Part shown: piece after piece, positions 55,200 to 57,536 of the stretch
Numbering within the stretch: the first letter of the stretch is position 1
How the letters are laid out: the number at the start of each line of letters is the position of its first letter
DNA from: Microbacterium sp. 1.5R
GTDB taxonomy: Bacteria > Actinomycetota > Actinomycetes > Actinomycetales > Microbacteriaceae
Length of the DNA stretch: 64,000 nucleotides
Direction of reading: 5' to 3'
Assembly: GCF_001889265.1 (NCBI RefSeq)
Contig: NZ_CP018151.1
Coordinates: 1 to 64,000 of the forward strand
Program-made: the position numbers and the translations under genes
The notes under the pieces: model-generated
What the model saw: the letters and a program-made list of their open reading frames with translations, nothing else
What the model was told of the DNA's origin: nothing
Databases searched by the model: none

Positions 55200-56004
55200 T
55201 GAACTCCTCGGCCGCCTGCACCTGAGCGGTGGAGGGGCGGATGCCGGTGTACAGCACGAACTGCTCGAGGGCCTGCAGGGTCGCCACCTCGGCCCCCGTG
55301 ATGACGGTCTTCCCGGCCGCGCGCCCTGCGGAGATCAGAGGCGTCTCCGCCGGCAGGGCGACGACGTCGAACACGACGGATGCCGCCGCGATCTGCTCCT
55401 CGGTGAACGACAGTGCGTGCTCGTCCGCGCCTCCCGCCATGCCGATCGGCGTGATGTTCACGATGATGTCGGCGGTGGCGGCATCCGCATCCGCCGTCCA
55501 GGCGAAGCCGTAGAGATCGGCCAGCCCTCGACCGCGCTCTTCGTTGCGGGCCGCGATCGTGACGCGGCTGAATCCGGCGTCACGGAAGGCGGCGGCGGTG
55601 GCCTTGGCCATCCCGCCTGAGCCCCGCAGCAGCACCGATGATGCAGGGTCGAGCGAGTTGCGCTCGATCAGCTGGGCGATCGCGCTGTAGTCCGTGTTGT
55701 ATGCGGTGAGCACCCCGTCATCGTTCACGATCGTGTTCACCGAGTCGATAGCCGTCGCCGAAGGGTCCATGCGGTCGACGAGCGCGATGACGTCTTCCTT
55801 GAACGGCATCGAGATCGCGCACCCGCGGATGCCGAGACCGCGCACGCCGGCGATCGCCTGGCCGAGGTCGGTCGGGGCGAAGGCCTTGTAGATCCAGTTC
55901 AGGCCCAGCTCCTCGTAGAGGAAGTTGTGGAATCGCGTGCCGTTGTTGCTCGGGCGTGCAGACAGCGAGATGCACAGGGTCATGTCCTTGTTCAGCATGG
56001 TCAC
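55186..56004 (-). CDS. Shikimate dehydrogenase-like protein (AroE family)
   Basis: The product is 272 aa. The N-terminal substrate domain has SLSARPSNNGTRFHN (a divergent form of AroE's PxxHS motif, with ARPSN in place of GxPxxHS), GCAISMPFKE including the catalytic Lys, and NTDYSA with Asp. The NADP Rossmann motif is RGSGGMAKA. The missing His and altered shikimate-binding loop suggest a quinate/shikimate-like or other substrate rather than housekeeping AroE. The GTG at 56004 lies six bases after TAGCCT. Confidence 0.83.
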   Translation of the reverse strand: MTMLNKDMTLCISLSARPSNNGTRFHNFLYEELGLNWIYKAFAPTDLGQAIAGVRGLGIRGCAISMPFKEDVIALVDRMDPSATAIDSVNTIVNDDGVLTAYNTDYSAIAQLIERNSLDPASSVLLRGSGGMAKATAAAFRDAGFSRVTIAARNEERGRGLADLYGFAWTADADAATADIIVNITPIGMAGGADEHALSFTEEQIAAASVVFDVVALPAETPLISAGRAAGKTVITGAEVATLQALEQFVLYTGIRPSTAQVQAAEEFMRAQ

Positions 56005-56069
56005 CGCACCAGGCTACTCGCGCAGTCCGTCCCGTCATTGCCACCGATGACGACGATCGTCAACCCCCC

Positions 56070-56099
56070 TTGGCGGGATCGAACGGACTCCCCTAGGGT
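56070..56099 (+). promoter_or_regulatory. Promoter of the putative ncRNA
   Basis: TTGGCG (56070-56075) and TAGGGT (56094-56099) are 18 bases apart and would start transcription at about 56106, exactly at the first paired base of the RNA structure. Confidence 0.65.
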
Positions 56100-56105
56100 G
56101 AAGGT

Positions 56106-56245
56106 GCATGCACAGGGGATTGATCGTCTCCGTCTTCCCCAGAGACGGGCTGCCTTCCCCAGAGGCAAAGGCGATCCGTGCATGCGATTGGGCCCTCTCG
56201 AGTAGTTCTGTCCCCAACGGACTGCTCGAGAGGGCCGCTGTCGTT
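56106..56245 (+). ncRNA. Candidate structured small RNA with twin C-rich loops
   Basis: GCATGCAC (56106-56113) pairs with GTGCATGC (56178-56185), extended by GGATTG (56117-56122) with CGATCC (56172-56177). Inside are two hairpins, CCGTC/GACGG (56130-56134, 56144-56148) and TGCC/GGCA (56151-56154, 56164-56167), which carry the identical nine-base loop TTCCCCAGA. A strong 16-bp hairpin (56191-56206 with 56221-56236, one wobble) then resembles a terminator, though the T tract is weak. There is no start codon or reading frame of interest. The architecture recalls the actinobacterial 6C RNA (two C-rich loops), but the loops have four Cs, not six. Confidence 0.6.
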
Positions 56246-56271
56246 TGTCTCCATCTCACAAATTTCGAATC

Positions 56272-56291
56272 TGTCCCCCAAATGGGGGACA
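56272..56291. promoter_or_regulatory. Palindrome before a -10 box in the csp upstream region
   Basis: TGTCCCCCA (56272-56280) and TGGGGGACA (56283-56291) are perfect 9-bp arms separated by AA. The right arm coincides with the -35 position of a possible -10 TAGGCT at 56310-56315, so a bound protein could control that transcript. Confidence 0.5.
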
Positions 56292-56344
56292 AAAGCAGGC
56301 GCGAGGGGTTAGGCTGGAATCTGACGCACCCTCCGGTCGTCTTC

Positions 56345-56375
56345 GGCCCTCATCGCTCCCCCCGCGGTGAGGGCC
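56345..56375 (+). promoter_or_regulatory. Hairpin with six-cytosine loop in the csp upstream region
   Basis: GGCCCTCA (56345-56352) pairs with TGAGGGCC (56368-56375), with an inner CGC/GCG pair and loop TCCCCCC (56357-56363). It lies about 24 bases after the predicted start of the TAGGCT transcript and is followed by ATTTTC, so it could be a short RNA's terminator or a regulatory hairpin. Confidence 0.4.
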
Positions 56376-56478
56376 ACACCATTTTCTGAGGGTCTCCATC
56401 TGCCCTGTCATGTGACCGCGGACGACCGCTCATGCAACATTTGGGTTACGGGCTGACATCAGGACTTCCGCTCAGCGC

Positions 56479-56500
56479 GTGCTCCACTAGCGTGGAGCAC
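56479..56500 (+). promoter_or_regulatory. Inverted repeat and -10 box nearest csp
   Basis: GTGCTCCA (56479-56486) and TGGAGCAC (56493-56500) flank TAGCGT (56488-56493), which would start the csp message near 56500 with a 47-base leader. Confidence 0.5.
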
Positions 56501-56546
56501 GTCGGGGCATCCTGCGTCGGCTTCTTTCCAGCAGAACAGGCAGTAC

Positions 56547-56753
56547 ATGAGCACCCAGGGCACGGTTAAGTGGTTCAACTCGGAGAAGGGCTTCGGCTTC
56601 ATCTCCCCCGACGACGGCGGCGCTGACGTTTTCGCGCACTACTCCGCCATCGAGTCATCCGGCTACCGCTCTCTTGAAGAGAACCAGCGAGTCGAGTTCG
56701 ACGTGGCGCAGGGCCCCAAGGGCCTGCAGGCTGAGAACATCCGTCCGCTCTGA
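56547..56753 (+). CDS. Cold-shock domain protein
   Basis: The product is 68 aa, a single cold-shock domain: an OB-fold single-stranded nucleic-acid chaperone. RNP1 is KGFGFI and RNP2 is VFAHY, both intact. Length and sequence match CspA-type proteins of Actinobacteria. The RBS is only a weak CAGG. The long gene-free region upstream holds several structured elements described separately. Confidence 0.95.
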
Positions 56754-56766
56754 GAGCGGACGTCAT

Positions 56767-56819
56767 AGAACTCCCCGACCGGAGGTCTGCACTCGTTGCG
56801 ACCCCCGGCGGGGAGTTCT
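56767..56819 (+). terminator. Hairpin after csp
   Basis: AGAACTCCCCG (56767-56777) pairs with CGGGGAGTTCT (56809-56819) across a 31-base loop, 13 bases after the stop codon. A smaller GGCCGG dyad lies just beyond. Confidence 0.65.
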
Positions 56820-56870
56820 GTGCTTTCCGGCCGGATTACCCCGGCCGGGTGGGCCCCCGGTCGGCCGAGG

Positions 56871-57536
56871 TCAGTGGAGCAGCAGCGCGCGCAGTTCGTC
56901 GGCGGATGCGGCGCGGAACGCGGCCTCATCGCCTTCGTGCGTGTCGCTGAAGCCCCACTCGACGAAGATCACCGGCACTCCGTTGGCGTTGCCGCCCTCG
57001 ACGTCGTGATGGCGATCTCCGACCAGCACGGGGCGTGAGATGTCTGCACCGCGCTCGGCCAGACGGCGCAGCGCCTCGGCGACGATGTCGGTCTTCGACG
57101 CGAGCGTCGCCTCGTCGGGCGTCGCACCGACCGTCGTCAGGAAGTACGGGCGCAGTTCGAAGAAGTCGACGATCGCATCGACCTGGATCTCGGGCTTCGA
57201 GCTGGCGGTCGCCTGAGGCACCCCTGCCGCGTGCAGATCGCGGATGATCTCGGGCACGCCCGGGTAGGTCGCGACATCGGTCGTGTATCCGTCGGCCTTG
57301 CCGAGTGTCCGATAGAAGGTGACCGCCTCGGTCGCCTGCTCGGGGGTCATCGCCGCCTGCGCCTGAAACGACTCGAACATGGGCGGCCCGATCCAGTGCA
57401 CGAGCTGTTCGCGCGTGGGAGCAGGGTGACCGAAGTGCGTGAGGGCGACGTTCAGACGGCGCAGGATGCCGACCGACGCGTCGGCGATCGTGCCGTCGAC
57501 GTCCCAGAGCACGCACGAATAGGGGGAAGAAGCCAT
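56871..57536 (-). CDS. HAD-family phosphatase (phosphoglycolate phosphatase-like)
   Basis: The product is 221 aa. HAD motif I is WDVDGTIAD (nucleophile and acid Asp pair), motif II TASSKP, motif III Lys in LASKTDI, and motif IV VGDRHHDVEGG. The cap is the helical type of the Gph/PGMB subgroup. The ATG lies seven bases after TAGGCT on the minus strand (rc of 57544-57549). The substrate is unknown. Confidence 0.88.
   Translation of the reverse strand: MASSPYSCVLWDVDGTIADASVGILRRLNVALTHFGHPAPTREQLVHWIGPPMFESFQAQAAMTPEQATEAVTFYRTLGKADGYTTDVATYPGVPEIIRDLHAAGVPQATASSKPEIQVDAIVDFFELRPYFLTTVGATPDEATLASKTDIVAEALRRLAERGADISRPVLVGDRHHDVEGGNANGVPVIFVEWGFSDTHEGDEAAFRAASADELRALLLH

Follow-up and report, generated by a model that had tools for sequence, protein, structure and literature searches.

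A predicted small RNA with three C-rich loops upstream of a cold-shock gene, one of a Microbacterium set with shared loops and unrelated stems

Positions 56070-56245 of a 64,000-nt stretch of the Microbacterium sp. 1.5R genome (the window, meaning the whole of the DNA analysed here) very probably encode a small structured RNA, which we place at 56106-56236 and which, judged by sequence, is one of a Microbacterium set of predicted RNAs with unrelated stems and the same loops. We consider it likely that this is a trans-acting small RNA whose C-rich loops pair with G-rich sites in mRNAs, since sX13, B11, LhrC and GsrN reportedly use such loops on G-rich RNA; by the same analogy, the Microbacterium C-loop RNAs as a group probably act through pairing with G-rich messages. 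We propose that the RNA would be made from a stand-alone gene on the + strand, that its stems would be scaffolding holding up three loops with a CCCCA core, and that the unpaired CCCC tips would seed base pairing to G-rich mRNA segments, probably close to the start codon, and so alter the translation or stability of those mRNAs, with several loops providing redundancy. Ribosome-binding sites are possible partners of the loops. A small-RNA gene had been proposed here in a preliminary description of this DNA, and the proposal is now backed computationally by covariation, a + strand signal and a conserved promoter region. The predicted elements are:

56070..56099, + strand: promoter-like sequence, TTGGCG (56070-56075), 18-nt spacer, TAGGGT (56094-56099)
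56106..56236, + strand: predicted small RNA, about 130 nt, with a stable fold, covariation and an excess of G-U over A-C in paired columns
56106..56113, + strand: P1 5' arm, partner 56178-56185; 98.6% of cells paired, two-sided changes in 6 of 8 pairs
56114..56120, + strand: G-tract AGGGGAT, within the bulge that separates P1 from P2, a possible loop partner
56122..56129, + strand: P2 5' arm, partner 56169-56176; 95.6% of cells paired, two-sided changes in 6 of 8 pairs
56130..56148, + strand: hairpin HP1, loop CCCCA at 56137-56141; two-sided changes in 6 of 6 pairs of helix 3
56151..56167, + strand: hairpin HP2, loop CCCCA at 56157-56161; two-sided changes in 3 of 4 modelled pairs
56169..56176, + strand: P2 3' arm, covered by the same covariation test as its 5' arm
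56178..56185, + strand: P1 3' arm, covered by the same covariation test as its 5' arm
56191..56236, + strand: terminator-like hairpin HP3, loop CCCCA at 56212-56216; two-sided changes in 10 of 19 pairs

The promoter had been described as TTGGCG-N18-TAGGGT, and both boxes and the 18-nt gap are indeed present at the coordinates listed. We infer a start at 56106, 7 nt past the -10 box, and set the 3' end of the RNA at the end of the terminator-like hairpin. Forty-five of the 66 csp-locus orthologues, picked by script for their type of -10 box, give the consensus TGGCG-N-GA...TCCTCCCC-TATGGT; across all 66, the -10 box is TATGGT in 36, TAGGGT in eight and TAGTGT in eight, the remainder being varied or out of register. 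A simple scan of 55500-57000 for sigma-70 promoters and terminators reported no site, because the -10 box is non-canonical and no run of U follows HP3. The sequence 56098-56245 folds at -76.9 kcal/mol (z -5.05; none of 200 shuffles was equally stable), and the architecture, from the outside to the 3' end, is that of an outer helix (P1), an inner helix (P2), two hairpins and the terminator-like hairpin.

The preliminary description had suggested looking for compensatory changes in the orthologous region, and these are abundant. In the alignment used for the structure test, A5, which holds 66 of the 67 csp-locus members in 64 distinct rows (L077 fell below threshold), 95.9% of 2917 cells pair, a percentage flattered by the fitting of A5 to the model structure, and 32 of the 46 pairs, with 209 cells, have two-sided changes. 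The shuffles gave 49.2 such cells, with none of 500 reaching 209, and 200 structure-free alignments simulated on the tree gave a mean of 44.9 and a maximum of 97; sliding the partner columns by 1 to 3 positions lowered pairing to 36-45%. A Fitch count on the tree, itself built from the same columns, found 262 pair changes, consisting of 77 from paired to paired on both sides, 101 on one side and 84 others. When 65 distinct sequences were aligned with MAFFT, unfitted and with the inner stems partly misplaced, 20 of 31 predicted pairs still had two-sided changes. Since RNAalifold misplaced the inner stems on MAFFT alignments, the structures for covariance models R1 and R3, described below, were set by hand. 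We regard it as extremely unlikely that there is no + strand RNA gene here, and that the pairing reflects an inverted repeat that matters at the DNA level, or transcription of the opposite strand: the hairpins do fold on the opposite strand too, but the paired columns contain 237 G-U against 41 A-C, a ratio that indicates a + strand transcript, the + strand gives the better fold in 67 of the 79 C-loop members, and it is on the + strand that the promoter region is conserved.

The loops are the most constant part of this structure. Two identical C-rich loops had been described, and both were found, as copies of TTCCCCAGA at 56135 and 56155; the count was too low, since three hairpins present CCCCA, the third being the loop of the terminator-like hairpin HP3, UGUCCCCAACG, which has the same core and was absent from the preliminary description. 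The window contains 21 TCCCCA sites on its two strands, and only three lie in loops closed by at least five pairs; these are the three loops of the predicted RNA. Among the 66 csp-locus orthologues, CCCC is found in the HP1 loop of all 66, in the HP2 loop of 64 (the other two having CCC) and in the HP3 loop of 65. Diversity across the same orthologues is 0.008 in the loop CCCC columns, against 0.207 in the stems and 0.293 in the remaining unpaired positions, in keeping with the earlier view of the C-rich loops as the key element. Folded as single sequences, 56 of the 67 csp-locus members have three CCC loops, eight have two and three have one. That the stems vary while the loops stay indicates the loop tips as the recognising or selected part, and the set of loci amounts to a natural experiment in which stems were replaced many times and loops retained.

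It had also been suggested that the loops could pair with the AGGGGAT tract to give a pseudoknot. The tract is present at 56114-56120, and GGG or a longer run is found at this place in 59 of the 66 orthologues; seven (L064, L067 and L069-L073) lack it and keep their loops, so the tract does not explain the loops, and we reject the pseudoknot as a general feature. A version of the idea in which the RNA is a switch, its tract pairing with a C-loop until freed by a signal or a target, would fit a few sequences well: in L009 the tract and loop 2 have both changed to fit anew (TGGGAA with TTCCCA), and L066 and L068 have GGGAA with TTCCC. However, a CCCC loop can pair with whatever G-tract it meets, and complementarity by itself therefore says little for a pseudoknot, and in most of the 66 orthologues the longest match to the tract is the terminator loop, not HP1 or HP2. 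Given these observations and the seven orthologues without a tract, we think a switch very unlikely, and favour loops that act on other RNAs.

Our searches place the RNA within a single genus. At the DNA level, 17 of 58 genomes searched, that of strain 1.5R included, gave a match, ten across the 5' part or the whole RNA and seven in the terminator part only; the 23 genomes of other families gave none. Covariance model R1, built on ten csp-locus sequences, matched 158 of 295 Microbacterium genomes, again including this one (E <= 0.01). Orthologous loci were fetched for part of the R1-matching genomes, and of the 72 matched loci, 67 lie upstream of csp, the position first described, and have a 6C-like core in the intervening DNA, and five lie elsewhere. 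A pattern for the 5' half hit 21 stretches of named genomes, each with Microbacterium in its title, although records near the window may be missing from that set. At the csp locus in Microbacterium, the RNA is flanked by a shikimate dehydrogenase-like gene on one side and csp on the other. A wider model, R2, built on 79 sequences, matched 187 of the 295 Microbacterium genomes (E <= 0.001), leaving 108 without a match. In a sample of 299 genomes of the family, six matched R2 (E <= 0.01, with strict filters), four of them Microbacterium, and none of the matches beyond the genus was convincing: L137 looks like a lone terminator hairpin with repeats and L138 like the interior of a coding sequence, and both were rejected. 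Two loci, L126 and L127, have csp, the palindrome described below and the 6C-like core without an R2 match. Together with the 108 unmatched genomes, this suggests either that the RNA is dispensable within the genus or that our models overlook members.

Downstream of the RNA, the window contains the following features:

56272..56291, strand not assigned: palindrome TGTCCCCCAAATGGGGGACA, possibly an operator, placed where the -35 box of the 6C-like RNA would be
56310..56315, + strand: TAGGCT, a -10-like box before the 6C-like RNA, similar in the orthologues shown
56322..56382, + strand: 6C-like RNA, 28.3 bits with RF01066, its core GACGCACCCTCCGG present at each of the 67 csp loci
56547..56753, + strand: csp, cold-shock protein gene (PF00313, E 1.1e-30)

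The RNA, the palindrome, the 6C-like core and csp are on the same strand in a fixed order, and the terminator-like hairpin is strong; one could therefore suppose that the predicted RNA is a cis element, stopping transcription ahead of the 6C-like RNA and csp as an attenuator or insulator. We consider this highly improbable, since the 6C-like RNA and csp have -10-like boxes of their own (TAGGCT at 56310 and TAGCGT at 56488), an insulator has no need for invariant loops on two further hairpins, and a different gene follows the RNA at another of its loci, locus B. The score of the 6C-like RNA lies below the RF01066 cut-off of 47 bits, and its sequence is highly conserved. Seven of 38 genomes searched have RF01066 hits above the cut-off, and the three such hits that were fetched (L122 and L123 from Microbacterium, L132 from another family) have no csp in their stretch. 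Because these better hits lie away from csp, the identification of 56322-56382 as a 6C orthologue is weakened, and it may instead be a second 6C-like kind. Matches to a cspA thermoregulator cover the csp coding region and were set aside.

The genome has no second exact match to the pattern of the palindrome TGTCCCCCAAATGGGGGACA. At all 67 csp loci the palindrome precedes the 6C-like core by 31-33 nt, and at locus B it is found at -46 to -51 of the RNAs of one type (type 3, seven of seven); none was seen upstream of the RNA at 56106-56236 or of the type-2 locus-B RNAs, including the one in this genome. The palindrome is found in 21 of 24 chosen genomes (three lacking it), with none in a reversed control, and from its sequence and placement it is possibly the operator of some regulator. 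In relatives, further small-RNA genes also have it upstream.

RNAs with the same plan and other stems are found at further loci (B, C, D and E). Locus B has a membrane-protein-like gene on one side and a gene whose translation reads M(A)AKK... on the other, neither with a Pfam match, and a RadA-like ATPase gene nearby; locus C is near an RNase H-like gene and locus D near a glycosylase-like gene, the last two names being read from translations. The terminator recurs in the 1.5R genome at 3054468-3054615 on the minus strand, where the RNA plan is again seen with different stems. Since locus B is common to types with very different stems, the locus-B types have the appearance of orthologues in which plan and loops were retained. 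Three hairpin loops containing CCC form in 30 of the 32 other-locus members when folded, compared to 2 of 320 shuffles, although these members were found by a model that already rewards C-loops. In the 15 locus-B members listed, an open frame begins 11-69 nt past the RNA in nine and 212 nt past it in one, and the filter missed the downstream frame in five; in L010, this frame reads as leaderless with its own -10 box, so there is no need to take the RNA for a leader.

Our predicted RNA belongs to no family that we could match. The preliminary description held that it resembles 6C without matching it, and this was borne out: RF01066 gave no match on 56100-56245 at E up to 1 and none on the RNA when 12 loci were scanned, and found 6C only as the weak match downstream. 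With Rfam 15, three tRNAs were the sole matches in the whole window at the gathering threshold, and ten loci from other places with relatives of the RNA had no match at E up to 1. We thus reject membership of 6C or another Rfam family. 6C RNA has two hairpins, each loop typically with six C (PMC4046766), and in B11, grouped here with 6C under RF01066, either loop is described as sufficient to repress a target with a G6 tract (PMC10470900). The likeness is that of an actinobacterial small RNA with two hairpins bearing C-rich loops; by contrast, the RNA described here has four C per loop, C-loops on three hairpins, an outer and an inner enclosing helix, and a terminator-like hairpin that is itself a C-loop. 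Another comparable RNA is sX13 of Xanthomonas, which has three stable stems with apical loops CCCC, CCCC and CCCCC, G-rich target sites near starts, an unstructured 5' region and a place at the polA locus (PMC3771888). Our RNA likewise has three stems with C-rich apical loops; however, it lies at a csp locus in Microbacterium, a lineage unrelated to that of sX13, and its enclosing helices have no counterpart in the passages describing sX13. As far as can be told, the two are convergent, not homologous. Copies of LhrC in Listeria are alike over their full length, whereas the Microbacterium C-loop relatives have the plan, the loops and parts of the terminator in common. LhrC1-5 and the UCCC-motif small RNAs of Staphylococcus are similar to our set in having redundant UCCC sites per RNA and several gene copies; LhrC has three UCCC sites, one of which, in contrast to our loops, is a single-stranded stretch (PMC4132741). 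In GsrN of Caulobacter, a C-rich loop pairs with a G-tract in the katG leader, and this loop is the most conserved part, as in our RNA; GsrN differs in belonging to another lineage, in activating katG, and in that a single 5' C-rich loop is described (PMC5869019). A search for small-RNA literature on Microbacterium or Microbacteriaceae in one open library, covering titles and the starts of abstracts, gave nothing on this RNA among the matches listed, and a search of PMC11109978 for Microbacterium gave no passage. As far as we have seen, the RNA family, the conservation of loops alone across loci, and the mirror-image G-loop RNAs described below are new; the RNA would act in a way already known. 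Our analysis thus adds an RNA family without an Rfam 15 match.

In relatives, hairpins with CTGGGGA loops, complementary to the C-loops, lie 3' of many of the palindromes. A model of these G-loop RNAs, R3, was built on eight sequences, and matched seven of 295 Microbacterium genomes (G114, G117, G121, G160, G215, G245 and G293; loci L200-L219); it had no match in the 1.5R genome. The palindrome, in the pattern used, lies upstream of 7 of the 16 R3 hits shown, with an imperfect one in most others, a link that is partly built in because the eight founding sequences were located through the palindrome. On the opposite strand, 14 of the 16 G-loop loci listed have two TCCCCAG sites, L205 has one and L202 none, and in most loci this C-arm folds as hairpins ahead of a shared terminator; 7 of the 16 R3 hits shown have TTGGGGA in the terminator region, which is UCCCCAA on the opposite strand. 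Several points speak against a convergent pair. For the G-arm, energies alone favour the + strand, which folds better in 13 of 16 loci (14 of 18 for the whole G-loop RNA), whereas the wobble count is even at 29:29. Folding energy does not set the strand of the C-arm, the minus strand being lower in 6 of 16. The shared terminator has its better fold opposite to the G-arm strand in 10 of 17 cases, in two by less than 0.6 kcal/mol. As modelled, the G-loop and C-loop RNAs at these loci are likely a convergent pair, mostly with a common terminator. We raise, tentatively and as something we would sooner doubt than assert, the idea of a loop-complementary network, in which C-loop RNAs (UCCCCAG, UCCCCAG and UCCCCAA) at many loci and, in some species, G-loop RNAs (CUGGGGA, with a third loop UUGGGGA in several members) encoded convergently with a C-loop RNA would neutralise each other through kissing interactions, and one regulator binding TGTCCCCCAAATGGGGGACA would co-control the 6C-like RNA together with some of the genes for C-loop RNAs and many of those for G-loop RNAs. 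Six of the seven R3 genomes also match R2, against 187 among all 295, and we read no association into these figures. With several predicted C-loop RNAs in the 1.5R genome and complementary-loop RNAs in some relatives, redundancy, sponging and co-regulation become testable.

The G-loop RNAs also bear on whether the C-loops might instead be sites for a protein, such as a cold-shock or other single-strand RNA-binding protein, that the RNA titrates or partners. Three identical loops would suit titration, and csp lies downstream in all 67 csp-locus members (a contig end partly cuts it in L037 and L077). Nonetheless, RNAs with the same loops occur away from csp, at locus B and after an IclR-type gene at locus G, L126 and L127 have csp although no C-loop RNA was found in them, and complementary G-loop RNAs are not expected from protein binding. 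We therefore think a protein site unlikely, and base pairing with G-rich RNA remains the reading that we prefer.

A search of the 1.5R genome for paired TGGGGA gave 20 matches, compared to seven in a reversed control. No G-loop RNA was recognised among them, and the search uncovered two loci of the C-loop plan that R2 had missed:

About 1152.6-1152.75 kb of the genome, + strand: predicted C-loop RNA, locus G (L253, about 390-545), two GTCCCCAGC hairpins and a C-loop terminator
About 3574.7-3574.8 kb of the genome, + strand: candidate C-loop RNA (L259, 335-415), hairpins GCAGGTTCCCCAGACCTGC and ACGGATGCCCCGCGTCCCCAGCGCGGGGCATCCGT

The first has three C-loops, with an IclR-type gene before it and a DUF6264 gene after it, and counterparts were fetched from five relatives, in which a strict stem scan found 3, 2, 1, 3 and 3 loops; two loops were seen in the second. 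The genome thus contains three predicted RNAs of the C-loop plan, a fourth candidate and one 6C-like RNA. A scan of 20 further places found two TCCCCA loops with stems of at least five pairs in each of L266 and L272, which correspond to about 531.7 and 1941.6 kb of the genome. In L261 and L262, TCCCCA repeats are clustered, without clear hairpins, and are alike in two species.
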